Shown here: piece after piece, positions 46,559 through 62,507 of the stretch
How positions within the stretch are numbered: position 1 is the stretch's first letter
Layout: each line of letters starts with the position of its first letter
IMG/VR virus record: IMGVR_UViG_3300002053_000019
Coordinates: 18,958 to 82,957 of that record
Length of the DNA: 64,000 nucleotides
Source of the DNA: a virus
Strand: one strand, 5' to 3'
Translations under genes and position numbers: made by a program
The notes under the pieces: generated by a model
Database searches by the model: none
What the model was told of the DNA's origin: nothing
Seen by the model: the letters and a program-made list of their open reading frames with translations, nothing else

Positions 46559-46877
46559 ATGGAAAGTACCTAAAAAAGTAAATATTCTAGGATTGGATTA
46601 TAGGATTAAAGAGCTTAAAAAACCAATTCCTATAGGTAAACATTTTGAAAAGAGTGCTTATATAGATTATAATAAATTGGAAATAGCTATTTCTAAGAAA
46701 CAAAGATTGCAAGAAATGCAATTAGATATGTTACATGAAATAGTTCATGGAATTCTTTGGTCTATTGAGGCTACTTTAAATATAAAAGAGAGACTTCATC
46801 GAAATGAAGAACTTGTAGATTTATTGTCTAAGGCTTTATTCGCTTCTTTAAAAGAAGCAAAAATTATACAATCTTAG
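46548..46877 (+). CDS. small HEIVH zinc-peptidase-like protein
   Basis: This is a 109-residue protein with HEIVH at residues 63-67 and NEELVDLLSKAL as a possible third-ligand helix. The pattern resembles small ImmA/IrrE-like or phage metallopeptidases of unknown target. The ATG at 46548 is seven bases after GGAGA. It is the last plus-strand gene; its end overlaps the end of the convergent sbcC-like gene by 14 bases. Its function is unknown. Confidence 0.65.
   Translation: MANRWKVPKKVNILGLDYRIKELKKPIPIGKHFEKSAYIDYNKLEIAISKKQRLQEMQLDMLHEIVHGILWSIEATLNIKERLHRNEELVDLLSKALFASLKEAKIIQS
46842..46858 (+). other. inverted repeat near the convergent gene ends
   Basis: GCTTCTTT (46842-46849) and AAAGAAGC (46851-46858) are perfect inverted repeats, inside the end of the HEIVH gene and just past the minus-strand sbcC stop. 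The T-run lies on the wrong side for a terminator in either direction. It may still act as a weak bidirectional stop or be coincidental. Confidence 0.25.
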
Positions 46878-48693
46878 AGATACCATCCTGTCCTCTATTA
46901 ACTGTAATTTGTCGTCCAAAAGATCCAGCTATTTCTTCTTTATGGCTTATGACAAAGACATGGAACACGTCTTGTATAATCATATAAAGAAGCCTAATTA
47001 CGTCTTCTTGACCTTTAAGATCTAAAGATAAATCAAGTACTTCGTCTAATAATAGAAAGTCGAAGGATGTCTTACTATAATCTCTGCATAGCAGAAATAT
47101 ACTTAATAATGTAGCAAGATTGAGGCGTTGCCGCTGACCATCACTTAGGCCAGCATACGGTATACGCCTTTCATCTTTTCTAACCACAATATCAATCTCT
47201 TCCTTTAAGGCCTTGGATTTCAATTCTCTCTGAGGCCTTATTTCTATTTGGAATCTTTCAGAAGAGATCGCCCCTAAGAAACGATTTACAAGAAGCTCAA
47301 GCCTTCCGAATGCTCTTTCTATAATATAAGAGGAGACTCCTTCTCTAGATAGAACCCATTTTAAGAAGCCATGAATATCTATCTTTTGAGAGACATCCTC
47401 TAATGATTTTGTTAGGCCTTCCACTTCTCCTTCACTTCTCTTAATGGAATCCTGTAGATTCTTAAGGAGAGGGAGGAAAGGATTAGGACGCTCTCGTAAT
47501 TCTTTTAAGTCAGTCTGTAGTTTCTTTGTCCATTCTTCATCGGCTTGTTTTTGACTATTATGAGAGGCCATCTGTAGTTCGGTCTGGTGTATTACATGCT
47601 CTAGTCTATCTACATCTTGTTTTATAGAATTGAGTTCTGTTAGCTTCTTTTCAAAAGACATTAATTTTGCATAGTTAATATGCAAACACTTCGCATTCTC
47701 TGCGAGAGCTTCTTGTAATTCTTTCTTATGATTATCAGCAGCAATTGCTGTTATTAAAGATCCACAATGTCTACAAGTAAAACCTTCTTTCTTATAAAGA
47801 AGTTCTTCTAATGCTTCTTGGTCATCCGCCATTTCAGCGGAACTAACAGCGTTTTCGTCCTGGAGAGTCCTAATAAGATTATGAATACGATCCTCTTCCT
47901 TCTCTGCTGCACTTGCTCTATCAATGGTGTCTTTTAATTCAATTCGTAACTTTTTAAAATCTTCGGAATAATCTGTATATTTTCTATCCTTTATAATACC
48001 TAATTGATACTGAAGATCTTTTTCATTCCGCTCCATATCTTGACGATAGCTATTGGACTTTTCTTGAACCATTTCAAATTTATGTTGACAATCCTCTAGA
48101 ACTCTCTTCTCAAGATCTATTCTAGCATTGCAAGTATCATAATCTTTCTGGAGTTTATCATATGCCATCTTTACTCGTTCGGCGACGACATCTAACTCTT
48201 CTAATCCTAATATCATTTTGAAGAGTTGCTTTTTGTCAGCATCCCCCATGCTGGCTAGGAATTCTCCTGAATATTGGGTGAAGAGGTTGACTCTGGTGAA
48301 GAGGGAATAACTGGTTCTGAAAGTGGAGTTGATAATTTCTTGGATATCTCGCTTATGGCCTTTGATAGCGTTTCCTCCACTTGTGAAAGCAACTTCACCG
48401 TCTCGTCGAGTGATCTCATACATAGTCCCACTTGAACTACTAAATCTACCTTTAACTTGTACAGGTTCTTTAGAGTCCCATCTACGTACTCCCTCATGTG
48501 TGAGACCTGTTGGAGTTTTTCCGAAAAGACAGTAACACACTCCCGCAAAGATGCTTGACTTTCCGCATCCATTAGAGCCTCCTCCTATCTCATTATATCC
48601 TTTAATTAGATATAGTCCTGGCTTACTAAAATCGATTTCAGCATGCTTGAAAGACATAAAGTTATCTAATGTCAGATATTCTAATTTAAACAT
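46864..48693 (-). CDS. sbcC: SbcC/Rad50-like recombination ATPase (gp46-like)
   Basis: The 609-residue SMC-type ATPase works with the SbcD-like nuclease in DNA end processing. Walker A is GGSNGCGKSS at about residues 38-47. The coiled coils carry a zinc hook (CRHC at about 304). The ABC signature is LSDGQRQRLNLATLL (about 514) and Walker B is FLLLDEVLDL (about 546). The length suits T4 gp46-like proteins. The LysM/SLT gene and a small frame lie between it and sbcD, although the two usually adjoin. Confidence 0.9.
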   Translation of the reverse strand: MFKLEYLTLDNFMSFKHAEIDFSKPGLYLIKGYNEIGGGSNGCGKSSIFAGVCYCLFGKTPTGLTHEGVRRWDSKEPVQVKGRFSSSSGTMYEITRRDGEVAFTSGGNAIKGHKRDIQEIINSTFRTSYSLFTRVNLFTQYSGEFLASMGDADKKQLFKMILGLEELDVVAERVKMAYDKLQKDYDTCNARIDLEKRVLEDCQHKFEMVQEKSNSYRQDMERNEKDLQYQLGIIKDRKYTDYSEDFKKLRIELKDTIDRASAAEKEEDRIHNLIRTLQDENAVSSAEMADDQEALEELLYKKEGFTCRHCGSLITAIAADNHKKELQEALAENAKCLHINYAKLMSFEKKLTELNSIKQDVDRLEHVIHQTELQMASHNSQKQADEEWTKKLQTDLKELRERPNPFLPLLKNLQDSIKRSEGEVEGLTKSLEDVSQKIDIHGFLKWVLSREGVSSYIIERAFGRLELLVNRFLGAISSERFQIEIRPQRELKSKALKEEIDIVVRKDERRIPYAGLSDGQRQRLNLATLLSIFLLCRDYSKTSFDFLLLDEVLDLSLDLKGQEDVIRLLYMIIQDVFHVFVISHKEEIAGSFGRQITVNRGQDGISKIV

Positions 48694-49618
48694 TCTTTAA
48701 CCATTCCTTGTAAGCATTATTCCAATAATTCTTAAAAGAGTGAGTTTTACCGCTTACCCAATAAGTATAATCTGGATTACTATTCCAATATGGATAATGC
48801 CATTTATATTCGGTCATCATTTCCAATGCTAAAGCAGTAGCTATCCACGGATCATTCTCTAGTTCGTGTAATTTAAATTCTAAATCTGCTCCCTTTATAT
48901 TGAACCTACCAGCAATAGTAGATGGTAAAAATTGGAAGCAACTTACTTCCCTCTTCTTGCCTCTTTTATTTACAAAATGAGATTCCTGCCAAGCCAATCC
49001 AACTAATTTATATAGAGTTTCCTCATTTGGAGCAAGTTTTAACATCGCTTCTGCGTACTGCCAGATCTCATACTTTCGTGTGTCTCCATATAGTACATCC
49101 ATAATCTTCCGCTGGTACTGCATTTCAGTAAATCCTAGATGACTCATCTTAGCATGCCGTTGGAATATATCAGTTTCTATCTCCGACTTATTCGTATATT
49201 TAATACCAGCCTTTTTGAACATGAATTTAGTTAGTATCTCTAATTTCACTTCATTAGGCATTGGAGGCGGAGGTGGCAAAGGTTTAATCTCACCTTTCTG
49301 AATGATGAGCTTCTGACCTGGAAATATAATATTTGGATCGGCTATTATATTTCTATTAAGATTATATATGTCAGGCCATTTGTCGTGCTTCCCATAAAGA
49401 TTATAGGCTATCCCACTAAGTGTATCATTTGGTTGTACAATATAGATCTTAGCGGGCTGCTGCTGTACCGCCTTCTGCTGCGTATACCCTTGTCCTTGGT
49501 TCTTGTGCCCTTCCTGGCCGCACTTCCCAATGAGGCTCAGGGAATACATTGTCAGGAGCAGGAGCGAGGCCGCCACCACGTACCGCCCTATATTCCCTTT
49601 CTTGTTCCATATCTTCAT
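48686..49618 (-). CDS. membrane-anchored LysM/lytic transglycosylase protein
   Basis: The ATG at 49618 follows AAGGAGGA and gives 310 residues; a TTG at 49633 would overlap that site. Residues 11-31 are a membrane anchor (RYVVAASLLLLTMYSLSLIG); the next cysteine lies in IGKC, a poor lipobox. A LysM domain is at 58-107, then a PPPPPP linker. The C-terminal SLT domain has catalytic-type Glu212 in LAWQESHF and SCFQFLPST. The protein may remodel host peptidoglycan. It lies among replication genes, away from the late lysis genes. Confidence 0.75.
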   Translation of the reverse strand: MKIWNKKGNIGRYVVAASLLLLTMYSLSLIGKCGQEGHKNQGQGYTQQKAVQQQPAKIYIVQPNDTLSGIAYNLYGKHDKWPDIYNLNRNIIADPNIIFPGQKLIIQKGEIKPLPPPPPMPNEVKLEILTKFMFKKAGIKYTNKSEIETDIFQRHAKMSHLGFTEMQYQRKIMDVLYGDTRKYEIWQYAEAMLKLAPNEETLYKLVGLAWQESHFVNKRGKKREVSCFQFLPSTIAGRFNIKGADLEFKLHELENDPWIATALALEMMTEYKWHYPYWNSNPDYTYWVSGKTHSFKNYWNNAYKEWLKNV

Positions 49619-49748
49619 TAAGTCCTCCTTCAAGATTTATTATAATCCTTCCATAGGCTAAAGAATCCATCAGAATTTGTACTTTATCAATATTCCAATC
49701 ATCATCGACTCTGGCATTGACAAATTCTTTTAAATGACGTCCTTTCAT
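49449..49748 (-). CDS. 99-residue protein overlapping the LysM gene
   Basis: This frame starts in ATGA overlap with the sbcD stop and runs 170 bases into the LysM/SLT gene in another frame. Residues 1-45 (HLKEFVNARVDDDWNIDKVQ, MDSLAYGRIIINLEGG) look like ordinary protein and fill an otherwise empty gap. The remainder is proline/arginine/alanine-rich (EVRPGRAQEPRTRVYAAEGG) and shares GC-rich DNA with the LysM gene. It is either a true overlapping gene or a shorter gene that has lost its stop. The function is unknown. Confidence 0.5.
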   Translation of the reverse strand: MKGRHLKEFVNARVDDDWNIDKVQILMDSLAYGRIIINLEGGLNEDMEQEREYRAVRGGGLAPAPDNVFPEPHWEVRPGRAQEPRTRVYAAEGGTAAAR

Positions 49749-50725
49749 TGTCTAACCTCCCTTAGAACTTTGATTGCCTTTTGCTTATCAATAGCGGTCG
49801 TAGTCCCCTCGATAAATCTTTCTACTGTATCCCACAAATCCTCGTTCTCTTTCTCTTCTAATCTAGCCTCACGAGTAGGGGCAAATTCGTAGGAGACTTG
49901 AACCCTATGATTCAAAGCTGGCACTTTCACTTCTGGTGAAGTAACTTTCAATCTATAATAATCAGTATTCTTCTCAAAGAATTCTAATAGTGTTTCCAAT
50001 TCTTCTTGAGTAGATACTGTTGCTTCTTTGAATTTTGGTGATTGTATTTGTATAAATCTGGATTTACCATCTTCGAAAATTGTGACTCCCCTATCCAATA
50101 TATCCTCTCCAAATTGATTAGCCATCACAGATCCTATATACATTGCTTCTGTAGCTCCATATATTTTTACCAATTGTCTAGTATGGAAGTGCCCTAGATA
50201 AATATACTTATAGCCGAAAAGACTTTCTGGGGGAGTTCCATCTACATGAGTCCTAGTAAAATCCGCATTTACATACGCACCATTTAATCCGATATGGCCT
50301 AGCAGGATATCATTCTTCACTTTTGGAATCGGACAATCCCAGGGCACCATATCAATCCCATTATCTAATTGTGTAGTATTTTCATATAGATATACATTCT
50401 TAATATCATCAAAGTTAGCCAGTATAGTTAACTTTCTAAACTGGTCATGATTACCAACTAACATATGTACTGGACATGCTTCTGCTAAATTATTAACTAC
50501 CAAGTATGCCGCGTTATAAATTATCTTAGGAATACTTTCAGTTAGCCCATGCAATAAATCCCCTAGAAAATATATAGCTTCTACTTTTTCCTTCCTAGCA
50601 ACTTCAGCTACTTTATTTATTACCATGAGTTGTTCTAGAAGTCTAGTATTCATTCCATTCTCATTAACAGTAGAGAACTGGGTATATGTGGATAAATGGA
50701 GATCTGTAAATAATAGTATTTTCAT
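49745..50725 (-). CDS. sbcD: SbcD/Mre11-like nuclease (gp47-like)
   Basis: The 326-residue calcineurin-like phosphoesterase shows the metal-binding motifs DLHL (residues 8-11), GDLLH (55-59), GNHD (91-94), GHIGLNG and LGHFHTR. Together with the SbcC-like protein it would process DNA ends for recombination-dependent replication. It overlaps the small MKILKH-tagged gene upstream by ATGA. A short frame (49449-49748) separates it from the LysM gene. Confidence 0.9.
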   Translation of the reverse strand: MKILLFTDLHLSTYTQFSTVNENGMNTRLLEQLMVINKVAEVARKEKVEAIYFLGDLLHGLTESIPKIIYNAAYLVVNNLAEACPVHMLVGNHDQFRKLTILANFDDIKNVYLYENTTQLDNGIDMVPWDCPIPKVKNDILLGHIGLNGAYVNADFTRTHVDGTPPESLFGYKYIYLGHFHTRQLVKIYGATEAMYIGSVMANQFGEDILDRGVTIFEDGKSRFIQIQSPKFKEATVSTQEELETLLEFFEKNTDYYRLKVTSPEVKVPALNHRVQVSYEFAPTREARLEEKENEDLWDTVERFIEGTTTAIDKQKAIKVLREVRQ

Positions 50726-51086: not shown

Positions 51087-52094
51087 TCACATATAGAAAT
51101 ATGGTTTGGAAAACCTCTCATCCTCCAGGATTTCTGGATGTTCTGCTAGAATCTTATAAAAATCTTTAGCGTAAAAAGAGATATCCCCATATTTATTCCA
51201 GGCTCCAGACGTAGTTATGATTCCCAAATCGATAGCTATATCTAATAATCCACTATAGGGATCTAGGCCACGTGACCAAGTCAATTCCATTTCACACTCT
51301 CCAAATGGAGGAGCACAGGAATTCTTAGCTACTCGTACTCTAAGGGTAACTCCTATTGGCCTGTTCTTTTTCTCCAATAGGATAGGAGTAGTTTTCAACA
51401 ACTCTAGCCTCACTGTGGAATGGAACTTAGAGCCTCGTCCTCCTGGAGTATCTGGCTTAAATCCACCTGGGCTATCAATAATATGGTTTGCCAACATCAT
51501 TATTGATTGTGTATCAGCAACAAGTCCAGGTAGAATACGCATAGCCTGTTTAATCTTCTGAGCCCTACGTCCTTGATCCGCTTTCATGTCTCCCTCTTCT
51601 ACATCGCCAATTTCTTTAATGGTAGAAGCGGCGGCGATGCTATCAAGAGCAATTAAAAGTTTTCTTTTCTTCCCAATGTCATTTAGAAGTTCATAGGAAG
51701 CAACAGTAAAATCCTCTACTGTGGGGGGATGGAATAGAATTAGATTATCATTGTTCACTCCATGTATGGCTCCGAAAGTCTTATCGTATCTCCGCTCTAC
51801 ATCTGCTAGAGCGAAGATTCCACCCATCTTCTGCATTTCAGCTCCAGCCTTGAGAATTAGTAAGGTTTTTCCAGTAGATGGATCCCCAAATAATTCGCAG
51901 ATTTGTCCGCTAGGATAACCACCTGTACCATCTACTCTCATGCTCATAACATAATCCAAAGCTAAATTACCACTATGCAGAAACCATTGGTTTGGAGGGG
52001 CCAGTATCCCCATAGTTTCTCGAAAATTCTGTACTATCGCCTCTACAGATTCTTCTGTAATTGGTTCACTCGTCGTTTTCTTCTGGCGCGCCAT
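51087..52094 (-). CDS. RecA-like recombinase
   Basis: The 335-residue protein has Walker A GDPSTGKT at residues 70-77, then ALADVERRYDKTFG, the acidic Walker B LLIALDSIAAAS and the L2-type loop region (ANHIIDSPGGFKPDTPGGRG). It is shorter than cellular RecA but like phage RecA/UvsX proteins. It would drive strand exchange in recombination and repair. Its start overlaps the preceding Cys-rich gene. The SSB, mediator candidate and SbcC/D genes are in the same block. Confidence 0.85.
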   Translation of the reverse strand: MARQKKTTSEPITEESVEAIVQNFRETMGILAPPNQWFLHSGNLALDYVMSMRVDGTGGYPSGQICELFGDPSTGKTLLILKAGAEMQKMGGIFALADVERRYDKTFGAIHGVNNDNLILFHPPTVEDFTVASYELLNDIGKKRKLLIALDSIAAASTIKEIGDVEEGDMKADQGRRAQKIKQAMRILPGLVADTQSIMMLANHIIDSPGGFKPDTPGGRGSKFHSTVRLELLKTTPILLEKKNRPIGVTLRVRVAKNSCAPPFGECEMELTWSRGLDPYSGLLDIAIDLGIITTSGAWNKYGDISFYAKDFYKILAEHPEILEDERFSKPYFYM

Positions 52095-53615: not shown

Positions 53616-53772
53616 CAGACTTCTCCTTCTTTCGTTTCTGATATTCTCGATACGCCTTTCTATTTTCTTTGACAAGATCTTTTTCAGCTTTTTCAAGATC
53701 TTTGAGTCGTCTTTTCCATTTCTTTACTGCATCATCAGAGTAAAAAGAATGACCCTTATCCAAATCTTTCAT
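53590..53772 (-). CDS. small charged coiled-coil protein
   Basis: The 60-residue protein is almost entirely charged: KKWKRRLKDLEKAEKDLVKE and KAYREYQKRKKEKSDEDI, suggesting a helix or coiled coil. It starts in ATGA overlap with the exonuclease stop and overlaps the next gene by 26 bases. Expression is supported by this coupling. The function is unknown. Confidence 0.5.
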   Translation of the reverse strand: MKDLDKGHSFYSDDAVKKWKRRLKDLEKAEKDLVKENRKAYREYQKRKKEKSDEDIGQDD

Positions 53773-54434
53773 ATAGAATTATCAGTTTTTCTAGTAAAAC
53801 CCATAAGAGCATTGTATACTCTTTCTAGTTCTATAACATCTCTTCGACAATGATCACTCAAATATTCTAATGATTCTTTATCGCCCATAAGAGCTTTTAT
53901 CCAATACTTAGGTTCAATCCTAGTTTTTTCTGTAGCACCAAACAATGTCCTACATACATTATCTAATCTTTTAGAACTCATACATAGACGACCACGAGCG
54001 GCAAAATAAACATCATTATGAAGTAATTCTCCGAATCCTGGAAATGGAACTCCCAATGATATAGCTCGTGTTCTTAGAAATGGAATATCAAATCGACTTC
54101 CGTAATAAGTAATAACTCTATCAAAATTCTTTAAATCTTTTACACACTGTTCAATCACTCGCTTATCTAAGCAAGTACGGAGATCACGTGGAGTAATTGT
54201 GCGTTCATAAATTTTATCTTCATCTTTTATTTTAATGCAATATGTCAAAACGATGCCAAAATCAGCATCCAAATTTGAACATTCAATATCTAGAAAGCCA
54301 ATTCTTTCAGTATCTGGATGTTCCCTAAGCCAACACTGATAATGACTTAATCCAGTTTCTCCATGTTTACATCTCCAATTATTCATCTTAATAAGCTCTG
54401 ATTTCTTAATCCTAGCTATATTTGGTCTAGCCAT
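53769..54434 (-). CDS. DnaQ-fold 3'-5' exonuclease-like protein
   Basis: This is a 221-residue protein with DIEC (Asp49, Glu51), then GSRFDIPFLRTRAIS and a C-terminal HCRRDVIELERVYN. These form a DEDD-type acidic set on an RNase H-like fold (YprB/RNase_H_2-like). It could proofread or trim DNA ends during replication and recombination. It is next to the SSB gene and coupled to the small coiled-coil gene. The polymerase already has its own exonuclease domain, so a repair role is likelier. Confidence 0.75.
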   Translation of the reverse strand: MARPNIARIKKSELIKMNNWRCKHGETGLSHYQCWLREHPDTERIGFLDIECSNLDADFGIVLTYCIKIKDEDKIYERTITPRDLRTCLDKRVIEQCVKDLKNFDRVITYYGSRFDIPFLRTRAISLGVPFPGFGELLHNDVYFAARGRLCMSSKRLDNVCRTLFGATEKTRIEPKYWIKALMGDKESLEYLSDHCRRDVIELERVYNALMGFTRKTDNSI

Positions 54435-54447
54435 TAGACATTCCTCC

Positions 54448-55449
54448 TTATTTGCTTAGCCTTCTTGCAGCGGCTCGTTTCTCTTTATCTGCCTTAGCGC
54501 CAGACATCATTCTACATGGGCCTGCCCATCCATCTTCAATACATTGTCCAGTACATCGTTCTGCTTGCGATCCATAACTACCAAAACAATCTGGATATGC
54601 ACTAGTACCAGTAAAATCTCCAGTACCAAACTTATCTACTTTCTTTGGTTCTTTCTTAGGAGCAGGTGGAACTTCCTCTTCATATTCTTCTGGAATTAAA
54701 TTAGACCACGCAGTTATAGTATCCATGTCACCATCAGAAGCAGTGGGATGCATAACTGGTGATTCTTTAACTGTAGCAAATGGATTCATATCGCCAGCTT
54801 GGATAGCATTAAATTCCTCTTCTGTCACGCCATAGTGGTAGTTAACAGGAAAGAAAAACATATTTGATTTTGGTCCCAGCCACGAAGGCAAGACTCTAAC
54901 TTCTGTTCTTCCTGCTTCTAATTTTGCCTGTGCCGAAACCTTAACTTCTCCGCTTTTCATTAAAGCGAGGATATTATCCAGTGGTACTAAATGTTTAAGT
55001 ACACCAAGATCAGGGAGAGTAGAAGCTGACATAGAAGGCTCCACATCATAATCAGCCCTATCTCGTGAAGCACCAGGAGTCTTCTTTACAAAAAGATTTC
55101 GTCCTTTCATTGGATCCATAAAGACTTTTAATTCCGCCTGTCCTGTAGGATCCATATGAAATCCAGCTAGTTTTTTGAAGATCTTATCTCCATATTCAAA
55201 TACTACAACTTGTGACGGATTGATGGCAGGGAATATAATATTTGAATAGTATTTGTGTTTCTGGTTAAGGTTCTGAGCTTTCTCATAAAGCTTTGTCCCT
55301 TTCAATGAACGGTCTTTCAAAATCTCGAAAGCAAGTTCGCATAGCTTACAAGGCTTATCAAAAGTAGTAGGGCATATAACTGGAGGGATTCCTCCGCCTT
55401 GCTTCAATACTCTTTTATAAGTATCCATTAATTTCTTATCGTAATCCAT
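54448..55449 (-). CDS. gp32-like ssDNA-binding protein with permuted order
   Basis: This is a 333-residue protein. Residues 22-38 (PPVICPTTFDKPCKLCE; Cys26, 34, 37) and YYSNIIFPAINPSQVVVFEYGDKIFKKLAG, read in pieces, match the gp32-type zinc and OB-fold region. In T4 gp32 the RFLPxx strand and zinc His come before these. Here EVRVLPSWLGP...FPVNYHYG (185-207, His205) comes after them. The order is thus circularly permuted, with all ligand types kept. The acidic PEEYEEEVPP tail is followed by a second Cys cluster (DCFG, CTGQC). Confidence 0.7.
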   Translation of the reverse strand: MDYDKKLMDTYKRVLKQGGGIPPVICPTTFDKPCKLCELAFEILKDRSLKGTKLYEKAQNLNQKHKYYSNIIFPAINPSQVVVFEYGDKIFKKLAGFHMDPTGQAELKVFMDPMKGRNLFVKKTPGASRDRADYDVEPSMSASTLPDLGVLKHLVPLDNILALMKSGEVKVSAQAKLEAGRTEVRVLPSWLGPKSNMFFFPVNYHYGVTEEEFNAIQAGDMNPFATVKESPVMHPTASDGDMDTITAWSNLIPEEYEEEVPPAPKKEPKKVDKFGTGDFTGTSAYPDCFGSYGSQAERCTGQCIEDGWAGPCRMMSGAKADKEKRAAARRLSK

Positions 55450-55450
55450 A

Positions 55451-55987
55451 TTATTCCTCCTTTTCGGCCTCTTGCTCTTCAGCAGGTGCCTCTACTTCAC
55501 GCTTAGTTCTTCGTTTTCTTGTCTTTTCTCTTTCTTTAATTTCGTCTTTGAACGCTTTTACTGTAGTGAATTCGTTTACTTGTACATCGCTCTGATTTCG
55601 GTATAGTTCCAATAGTACGTTGAATTTTTCTTTGAATGCGTCTTTAGCCACATTAAGCATATCTTCCATGTACTCAGCCTTAATAAGCTCTTTCTGAGCC
55701 TCGTGATATGCTGGATGCTCCGCAAGATAATCATTAATCATCTTCTCAGTTACTCGTAATCCAGGATTCTCTGCGGCCATTTCCATTCGGAATCCCTTAG
55801 TTAGCTCCGCCTCAATCTGGCGAGTGGCTAATTTTTGCATCCTTCTTTTTCTAGCGGATAAAGCCCAAGCCATACTCCAATAAAAGAATAAAGACGGTTG
55901 CCTAAGCAATTCGTCTTCTAGCTTGGTTTCATCAATTTGCAGGGCATCGCTAATCTGCCCCTCTGACGTTCTCTTTTCGTCGGTCAT
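55451..55987 (-). CDS. predicted recombination mediator, UvsY-like position
   Basis: The 178-residue helical protein has a conserved-looking core, LLRQPSLFFYWSMAWALSAR, then HPAYHEAQKELIKAEYMEDM, and a charged C-terminus rich in E and K. It lies directly upstream of the SSB gene, a usual place for a mediator that loads recombinase onto SSB-covered DNA. Sequence similarity to UvsY could not be confirmed by eye. The role is an inference from size, helicity and neighbours. AGGAGG-like sites precede the start. Confidence 0.55.
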   Translation of the reverse strand: MTDEKRTSEGQISDALQIDETKLEDELLRQPSLFFYWSMAWALSARKRRMQKLATRQIEAELTKGFRMEMAAENPGLRVTEKMINDYLAEHPAYHEAQKELIKAEYMEDMLNVAKDAFKEKFNVLLELYRNQSDVQVNEFTTVKAFKDEIKEREKTRKRRTKREVEAPAEEQEAEKEE

Positions 55988-59715: not shown

Positions 59716-60090
59716 TTATAGGCTAGTGTCTAAATACCTCATTAGCTTTGTAAAGCTTTTTCCTTTCATATCATCAGGGAAACTTTCTTTATTTACAAAG
59801 ATGAATCTTTTCTCGTTAGGCCGTAACTGTTGTAACATAAAGAACATGCCTAAATCAAATATGCTTCCTAATGAAGTTCGACTAAACCAGATATGAATTT
59901 CATCGGCACTTCTCATAGCTCTAGCATTTGATGCGCAGATGCCAATGCCTATTGGATCAGTTTGATCTGTATCTCTAATAGGCCAATAGACTACGTTTCC
60001 TTCTTTCTCCATTTTAGTGACATACTCTTTTACATTATCCATGTCTTCCTCCGTTATGTCTCTAACAGGTGAGATTAAAAATATATTCAT
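59716..60090 (-). CDS. nucleoside 2-deoxyribosyltransferase-like protein 2
   Basis: The ATG at 60090 has ideal distance from GGAGGA and gives 124 residues. NIFLISPVRDITEEDMDNVK, then VVYWPIRDTDQTD, CASNARAMRSADEIHIWFSR and SLGSIFDLGMFFML match a Rossmann-like fold related to deoxyribosyltransferases. It is not a close copy of the neighbour. Acidic residues in DTDQTD and the SADE motif may form the active site. Confidence 0.6.
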   Translation of the reverse strand: MNIFLISPVRDITEEDMDNVKEYVTKMEKEGNVVYWPIRDTDQTDPIGIGICASNARAMRSADEIHIWFSRTSLGSIFDLGMFFMLQQLRPNEKRFIFVNKESFPDDMKGKSFTKLMRYLDTSL

Positions 60091-62507
60091 TTCCATTCCT
60101 CCATATTTCCTAGACTTGTGCCGTATTTGGCATCAACTAGAATAGGTATTGAAACTTTGAGAAATTTCTGAAAATAAGAAGTCATAATCTTTATTATTAT
60201 TGGAACAATCCATATCTCAGTCTGGTGAACTGATAGAATGACGGAGTCGTGAATCTCCAATAACAATTTAGATCTGAGTTTAAACTTTTCAAGAAACTCT
60301 TTAATCCCAATGAGAGATACCAATAGGAAATCTGAAGCTAGACTTTGTATTGGAGCATTAATCGCTTCACGAATCATCGCCTGAACTGTTTCACTGTTGG
60401 GATCAGTATACTTCCATACAGGCAATCTCCTATATCTACCAAGTGGAGAACGAACCCATCCTTGTGTAAGAATTAGATTCTTCGTATTCTCCATATATTC
60501 CGCCAACTTAGGATAAGTCTCAAAGAATTTAGCTAAATATTCATCGGCCTCCTCCTCAGTACAATTTATCTTCTTCATCAGGCCCCATTTGGTCTGCCCA
60601 TAAATCGTACCGAAATTAACTGTCTTACCTATAATTCGTCTTTGATCATCTGTAACTTGATCTTCTAGAATTCCTAGAATACCAGCAGTAGTTTTACGAT
60701 GAACATCCCCTTTCAATGCCTCTTTAAGAATCTCATCTTCAGCTATCTCCGCCGCAAGTCGAAGCTCTATCTGATTAAAATCAAATTCGACGAGGAAATG
60801 TTCTGGGTCTGCGATAACTGCATTACGTATCTTAATTAAATCTTTCTTACCCTTTGGCAGATTCTGAAGATTCGGCTTACGGCTTGAGGTTCTCCCTGTT
60901 GCTGTCTCCGTCAACCAATATGTAGTATGAATTCTACCATCATCAGCCACAGCCTCAGTGAATTCTTTCAATGTTTTAGAGCGCATGGTCTGCCATTGAG
61001 AATATTTGATAAGTAGTTCACAAAGAGGACTCTTATCTTTTAATTTATCTAAAACATCTAAATCAGTAGATGGTTCTCTAGAAGTAGGAGTCCGTTTTAG
61101 GATTGGCAGACTTTCATATTTAAATAGAACTTCACGAAGTTGGACATGGGAATTAGGATTGAATTCTATATCATTATCAGTCTCATATTGCCTAACTGAA
61201 GGATAACTTCGGATTTCTTCTTCAAGTTCTTCTAGTATCCCAATTGTCTCATCCGTTCCATCTATTTTGTCGATGGCTTCCTGTACTAAATCCTGGTCTA
61301 TAAGGATTCCCCTTTCTTCCATTTCGGACAAGACTATAGATACAGGGAGTAGAACTCCAGAAAAGAGAGCATATAGCTGCTGATCAGCAGCAAGTTTTTG
61401 ATACTGTGCTTTATAAATTCTATACGTAATATCAGAATCTACCGCATTGTACTCATATAATTCATCCCCTTCTACTTTATCTACTTTATCTTTAAGTTGT
61501 GTTTCGTACCCTCCACACTTTGTATATTTCCATGCTAAATCTTTCAACCCATTAGATTCGTTCTCATTTAGTAAAAACTGAGCGATTTTAGTATCCCAAT
61601 AAAGTCCAATGGTTTGTATACCTAATATATGCCTAACCCATAGGATATCGAACTTAGCATTCTGAGCTATCTTTTTGATATCAGGGGCTTCGAATATGAT
61701 ACGCAGGTCATCTAGAATTCCATTCCATTCGTCTTCTTTCCAAGGATTGAATTCTCCATAATCTGTTGGAAGCACAGCAGCTTTTTTGTGTGCCCATGAG
61801 AATCCTATACATTTTACTTGTGAATCATATTGGAATGGCGATAATCCTGTAGTCTCTACATCGAAAGCGAATTCTTTAGTATTTATTATATTAGCAAGAA
61901 TATTAGTCCAAGTATCTATATCTCTTATAACCGTGTACTCACCAAGGTCAGATGGGTCTGTAAGATTACCAGTGAGAGCATTTGGAATTCTTGCCATGTG
62001 TTCAAAGAAAGTTCCTTGCTCGTCTTGGTGACGTAAGATATAGGCTGGATGGAGGATGGGTAGAACTAGTCTCCCATCTATTTCCATAGTCTTGCCAGAA
62101 TACTTTACTATCCCACTCTTTATGCCTGTTACGGCATGGAGTGGAACATTGCCCAATAATACTATCAGTTTAAGATTGGGCATATTAGTTATTTCTTCTT
62201 CTAAGAATGGACGGCATGTTTTGATCTCTTTTGTAGTAGGAGTCCGATTCTTAGGAGGACGACATTTTACTGCGTTAGTAATTGCATAATTCTCAATATG
62301 AGTATTATAAATAGCTTCTCTTAATAAAATACCAGCGTCCCCAATAAAAGGACGTCCTTCGTCGTCTTCATCAACTCCAGGGGCTTCTCCTACAAAAAGG
62401 ATCTCTGCATTTAAATCACCCTCCATCCCCATATGTGCGGTTTTGCATCCCTTACATAAGATGCAATCTACTCCGCACTCCAATTGTTTTGTCAGTTTAG
62501 GTGTCAT
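60087..62507 (-). CDS. uracil-DNA glycosylase fused to DNA polymerase A
   Basis: This is an 806-residue fusion. Residues 1-170 form a family 4-like uracil-DNA glycosylase: GEAPGVDEDDEGRPFIGDAG, HPAYILR (His153) and Fe-S-type cysteines (C11, C15, C18, C21, C82, C98). A 3'-5' exonuclease follows with DVETTGL near 217. The polymerase has motif A DFNQIELR, motif B RRIIGKTVNFGTIYG (Lys and Phe kept) and motif C EIHDSVIL near 752. Motif C has Ser in place of the usual Glu. It is the main replicative polymerase candidate. Confidence 0.9.
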   Translation of the reverse strand: MTPKLTKQLECGVDCILCKGCKTAHMGMEGDLNAEILFVGEAPGVDEDDEGRPFIGDAGILLREAIYNTHIENYAITNAVKCRPPKNRTPTTKEIKTCRPFLEEEITNMPNLKLIVLLGNVPLHAVTGIKSGIVKYSGKTMEIDGRLVLPILHPAYILRHQDEQGTFFEHMARIPNALTGNLTDPSDLGEYTVIRDIDTWTNILANIINTKEFAFDVETTGLSPFQYDSQVKCIGFSWAHKKAAVLPTDYGEFNPWKEDEWNGILDDLRIIFEAPDIKKIAQNAKFDILWVRHILGIQTIGLYWDTKIAQFLLNENESNGLKDLAWKYTKCGGYETQLKDKVDKVEGDELYEYNAVDSDITYRIYKAQYQKLAADQQLYALFSGVLLPVSIVLSEMEERGILIDQDLVQEAIDKIDGTDETIGILEELEEEIRSYPSVRQYETDNDIEFNPNSHVQLREVLFKYESLPILKRTPTSREPSTDLDVLDKLKDKSPLCELLIKYSQWQTMRSKTLKEFTEAVADDGRIHTTYWLTETATGRTSSRKPNLQNLPKGKKDLIKIRNAVIADPEHFLVEFDFNQIELRLAAEIAEDEILKEALKGDVHRKTTAGILGILEDQVTDDQRRIIGKTVNFGTIYGQTKWGLMKKINCTEEEADEYLAKFFETYPKLAEYMENTKNLILTQGWVRSPLGRYRRLPVWKYTDPNSETVQAMIREAINAPIQSLASDFLLVSLIGIKEFLEKFKLRSKLLLEIHDSVILSVHQTEIWIVPIIIKIMTSYFQKFLKVSIPILVDAKYGTSLGNMEEWK

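Follow-up and report, generated by a model that had tools for sequence, protein, structure and literature searches.

A probable naturally circularly permuted gp32-type single-stranded DNA-binding protein in a metagenomic virus

gp32-type SSBs of described phages and the gene in the window

The single-stranded DNA (ssDNA)-binding protein gp32 of phage T4 (PF08804) has the zinc ligands His64, Cys77, Cys87, and Cys90 (PMC3012046), and the LAST motif KRKST in its N-domain contacts the neighbouring subunit, which results in cooperative binding (PMC12893549). The ssDNA-binding proteins (SSBs) of the phrog_1192 type are colinear with T4 gp32 (hhalign probability, 98.3; E, 1.7e-14; 272 columns), and the Pfam gp32 profile covers the proteins of phages phiK7B1, Goe26, and T4, as well as those of the collected loci L042 and L043, from its first positions. 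The order of T4 gp32, in which, as stated in a sequence-only reading of the locus described here, the strand region comes before the cysteines and the OB-fold, is thus that of this normal-order family, and the RVLP...H block of the family therefore corresponds to the gp32 N-terminal strand and the His64 region.

The SSB of Pseudomonas phage phiK7B1 (QOC57919.1, phrog_1192) reads GTHTYRVLPSWRGG...H...C..KTFGKPCEVC and has an acidic C-terminal tip. The same two blocks, in the same normal order and also with an acidic C-terminal tip, are found in the SSB of Bacillus phage Goe26 (WCS68067.1, phrog_1192). We identified both the strand block and the zinc/OB core of gp32-type SSBs in a protein encoded in the window (the whole 64,000-nucleotide stretch of viral DNA analysed), and their order is reversed. 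In this protein, the RVLPSW sequence is identical to that of phiK7B1. The zinc cysteines and the four-cysteine tail of the window SSB are absent from the Goe26 SSB. The zinc/OB core of T4 gp32 is homologous to the first block of the window SSB, and all four T4 zinc ligands have counterparts there, whereas the LAST motif and the acidic C-domain of T4 gp32 are absent or displaced.

The gene (54448..55449, minus strand) encodes 333 amino acids and was assigned on the basis of its open reading frame (ORF), a Shine-Dalgarno sequence, and matches to Pfam gp32 and phrog_1192. It begins with an ATG at 55449 and its stop codon ends at 54448; the sequence-only reading had given these coordinates correctly, but the gene lies on the minus strand. 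The residue numbers of that reading (C26, C34, C37, R185-V-L-P-S-W190, and H205) are exact in the translation. The Shine-Dalgarno sequence GGAGG (55456..55460, minus strand) is located 6 bases before the ATG and adjoins the stop codon of the upstream gene (55453-55451). Upstream of the ATG, the frame is open for only 14 more codons (347 in total), so the protein has no long hidden N-terminus.

Reversed order of the strand block and the zinc/OB core

The window SSB starts with a new N-terminal extension (residues 1 to 23; 55381..55449, minus strand), which lies outside all family matches and includes a predicted helix at residues 3 to 17. Block A (residues 24 to 162; 54964..55380, minus strand) follows; it contains the C26/C34/C37 cluster and the OB core, corresponds to phrog_1192 positions 75 to 198 and to positions 76 to 200 of a normal-order profile, and is the counterpart of the second part of normal-order SSBs. 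The counterpart of their N-terminus is block B (residues 163 to 212; 54814..54963, minus strand; phrog_1192 positions 31 to 67), which scores 22.9 bits with a profile of the family N-terminus. It contains the RVLPSW strand (residues 185 to 190; 54880-54897, minus strand) and the H205 codon (54835-54837, minus strand), and the RVLPSW...NYHYG sequence as a whole spans residues 185 to 207.

Pfam gp32 (PF08804) matches residues 26 to 142 at profile positions 45 to 170, above the cutoff (E, 4e-07), and phrog_1192, a phage SSB family, matches the window SSB in two stretches (E, 2.6e-13). When the protein was split, residues 1 to 149 matched phrog_1192 positions 75 to 198, and residues 150 to 235 matched positions 31 to 67 (E for the latter fragment, 0.037 across 38,880 PHROG families); the same crossed pair was obtained when the virus record was searched. 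Normal-order relatives were then gathered starting from the phiK7B1 SSB, and a profile built from 13 of them aligned residues 28 to 161 with its positions 76 to 200 and residues 163 to 212 with its positions 9 to 64. With a tandem-doubled profile, residues 28 to 212 formed one unbroken domain with a score of 38.3 bits, compared with at most 18.2 bits per piece for the single copy; the doubled version of a 55-sequence profile gave 31.9 bits. The two crossed blocks were also recovered by hhalign (92.6% and 88.7%).

Each block by itself is a remote match (16 to 27 bits), well above the shuffled controls. With the normal-order profiles, the later block reached 26.5 bits and the first one 18.4 bits, whereas 5,000 shuffles per block gave no more than 8.0 and 6.7 bits, respectively; the runner-up among the 240 ORFs of the window reached 9.4 bits. 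The corresponding scores with the 55-sequence profile were 19.6 and 19.5 bits versus at most 6.0 and 7.9 bits in 10,000 shuffles. The order noticed by eye, with the cysteine cluster and the OB-like part first and RVLPSW...H205 later, is thus confirmed at levels above chance, and the homology of both blocks to gp32-type SSBs is borne out by the profile searches. The relatives nearest to the window SSB among those found are SSBs of the Nickievirus and Herelleviridae type and not T4 gp32 itself. Because the strand block lies after the Cys/OB block, the window SSB is classed as a permuted variant and not as an ordinary family member. No second RVLP-like strand precedes the cysteine cluster, the sole other match of the N-terminal profile scoring -1.5 bits at residues 115 to 131; duplication instead of permutation was rejected on this ground.

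At the junction (residues 157 to 176; 54922..54981, minus strand; alignments A5 and D5), the old end of the core is fused to its old start. The two are joined around LDNILALMKSGE, with the old core end VPLDNIL running directly into the old core start ILALMKSGEVKVSA; in the alignment, the SAKKxRxxT sequence of the relatives is shortened to SA-QA and the basic stretch is gone. The new start of the protein maps to the loop that links the zinc histidine to the first of the zinc cysteines.

The tail (residues 213 to 333; 54448..54813, minus strand), as read in the sequence, is unpermuted and consists of an acidic linker, a four-cysteine cluster, and a basic tip. Since the acidic linker and the four-cysteine tail are still C-terminal, only the core is permuted. 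The protein ends in ADKEKRAAARRLSK; an acidic tip is absent, and the acidic stretch is internal (residues 254 to 259). The tail gave no Pfam or PHROG match, and its cluster (C288, C299, C303, and C312; 54505-54597, minus strand) is possibly a second zinc site. A similar four-cysteine, basic-ended C-terminal tail was found in a metagenomic phage SSB (L056:1947-3029, minus strand), the core of which can be aligned with residues 25 to 163 of the window SSB. However, the cysteine cluster of the L056 protein begins at about residue 98, with ~97 residues ahead of it, as in normal-order proteins; its strand block was not recognised by the N-terminal profile.

Proposed zinc site, fold, and origin of the permuted protein

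The proposal that the expected zinc ligands have all been kept agrees with the alignment, in which C26, C34, C37, and H205 fall in the ligand columns of the family and are thus candidate ligands. The histidine column is invariant in all 55 relatives, whereas all three cysteines are kept in only 33 and none in 9. The invariance of the histidine even though nine relatives lack the zinc cysteines suggests that this residue has a role beyond zinc. The proteins without any of the three cysteines include L044:2492-3565 and L152:4581-5582, in which the other family features are kept. In the homologue of gp32 from Campylobacter phage CP81 (L026:1258-2175), other residues stand at two of the three zinc-cysteine positions, and the sequence reads SPSTIGLPCPIQ in place of CPST..PCPVC.

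By analogy with its relatives, the RVLPSW strand of the window SSB would complete the OB-fold, and H205 would form a zinc site together with C26, C34, and C37. AlphaFold models of the protein were of low confidence (pLDDT, 57 and 50; pTM, 0.45 and 0.42); their input consisted of shallow compromise alignments (A13 and A23) that were unable to pair the two blocks, MAFFT having placed normal-order fragments unreliably on the permuted chain. Both models have a helix at the N-terminus (pLDDT of about 70 for residues 1 to 10), and a Foldseek search with the first, low-confidence model returned no usable PDB match.

Judging from the sequence comparisons, we consider it very probable that the gene product is a true gp32-type SSB that has been circularly permuted in nature, with predicted ssDNA-binding activity; a search of open-licence papers yielded none that describes a permuted SSB of the gp32 type. 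Such a protein could have arisen if the SSB core had been duplicated in tandem and in frame and the outer halves had then been lost, which would leave the strand after the OB part. The usual OB-fold would then be restored in cis with the relocated RVLPSW strand, and the zinc site would be made up of C26, C34, C37, and H205. The little spare sequence where the old core end meets the old core start, and the profile alignment, which runs through this point without a long insert, favour such closure in cis. They also count against an arrangement in which the RVLPSW-His block of each subunit completes the truncated OB core of the next, giving a strand-exchanged filament in place of a closed monomer. 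This arrangement is unlikely in our estimation, although the order of the sequence is the same for action in cis and in trans, and neighbouring subunits of gp32-type SSBs contact one another in the filaments that they form on binding (PMC12893549); if it were true, the permutation would have created a mode of cooperativity different from that of gp32.

Less likely still is a chance resemblance of an RVLP block unrelated to gp32, in which case the OB-fold would be complete, or degenerate, without the block. The modest score of the block alone against all PHROGs (E, 0.037) and the tblastn results for the block in phages, which had E values of about 2 and above and were mostly unrelated, would fit such a resemblance. 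However, the match falls on the very family to which block A belongs, at the positions missing from block A; none of the 10,000 shuffles exceeded 6.0 bits, in comparison with the 19.6 bits of the real sequence; and block B retains every one of the seven residues (L, K, G, R, P, F, and H) whose columns are invariant in alignment A5. The question raised beforehand, whether the RVLP region is unrelated to the gp32 N-terminal strand, thus received the opposite answer, with residues ~163 to 212 matching the N-terminus of phrog_1192-type SSBs. The explanation to which we give the least weight is an assembly artefact or chimera, the rearrangement of a normal-order SSB gene having taken place only in silico. 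All copies are indeed identical and come from metagenomes only, but the gene and its flanks agree among three virus records whose ends differ; two of these records have different IMG dataset numbers (3300028823 and 3300002052). Moreover, the frame is open across the junction, the start has its own Shine-Dalgarno sequence, no repeats are present at the junctions, and the trimming of the junction relative to the relatives suits natural evolution and not the joining of intact pieces.

In the permuted protein, the old N-terminal end lies inside the chain and the new end is at the zinc subdomain. No KRKST-like (LAST) motif was seen on reading the new N-terminus. With the N-terminal arm of the family now internal and both a LAST-like motif and the basic stretch absent, any T4-like cooperative contact would be expected to have been lost or to be made differently, having perhaps been taken over by the new extension (residues 1 to 23). 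The family assignment and the gene context suggest that the permuted SSB would coat ssDNA in phage replication and in UvsX/UvsY-type recombination. It could serve as a natural experiment on which gp32 features are needed (strand order, a free N-terminal arm, and an acidic tip) and on possible ways of rewiring the formation of filaments and the exchange with UvsY and UvsX. Ordinary profile annotation may detect only half of such a permuted protein.

Distribution and genomic neighbourhood

Among the collected loci, 59 distinct ORFs match the family profile: 55 are of normal order, 1 is permuted, and 3 match with the second half only, the last group including, at the cutoff used, T4 gp32 and the L056 protein. 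The normal order thus holds for every one of the 55 distinct relatives in which both halves were scored. The suggested search for permuted homologues in other phages yielded none in 50,697 phage records or 72,556 plasmids, and direct tblastn of the window SSB in phages and plasmids gave no match. IMG/VR and GTDB genomes were scanned, with limited sensitivity for remote relatives, for a DNA pattern of a start codon shortly before the cysteine cluster. In IMG/VR, the window's own virus was the sole source of a permuted SSB, the normal-order L056 gene having matched through an internal ATG; none of the four GTDB matches was an SSB. The permuted form was found in only the three metagenomic virus records, which are 100% identical over the compared stretches and constitute one viral genotype.

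The neighbouring mediator and RecA-like genes, named as such from the sequence alone, kept their identities in the profile searches. Directly upstream of the SSB gene is a gene for a UvsY-like recombination mediator (55451..55987, minus strand; phrog_1069, E 3.2e-18; UvsY-like phrog_231, E 0.0012). Directly downstream is that of an RNase H-like 3'-5' exonuclease (53769..54434, minus strand; PF13482, E 5.4e-13; phrog_403, E 7.2e-17), and further downstream lies that of a UvsX/RecA-like recombinase (51087..52094, minus strand; PF00154, E 5.4e-35; phrog_97, E 4.3e-49). The UvsY-like and UvsX-like neighbours fit an SSB of replication and recombination. The order UvsY-like gene, SSB gene, and RecA gene recurs in Goe26, where the SSB, also of 333 amino acids, matches phrog_1192 over nearly its full length in normal order; the permuted gene therefore sits in a syntenic SSB slot. 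No other SSB, of normal order or otherwise, was found in the same virus record, which is possibly incomplete. The permuted SSB is presumably indispensable to the phage. Searches for RNA families, tRNAs, and repeats near the gene gave nothing relevant.

The match of the UvsY-like protein to phrog_1069 is confined to the C-terminal third of that family (positions 277 to 413 of 425), and in other phages this mediator may therefore follow, in one fused chain, a domain of 250 residues whose function is unknown. Elsewhere in the window, a single polypeptide (60087-62507, minus strand) comprises a family A DNA polymerase with a 3'-5' exonuclease and, at its N-terminus, a uracil-DNA glycosylase domain. 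The gene that lies between an SbcC-like gene (46864-48693) and an SbcD-like gene (49745-50725) encodes what reads as a LysM-plus-lytic-transglycosylase-like protein (48686-49633, minus strand).
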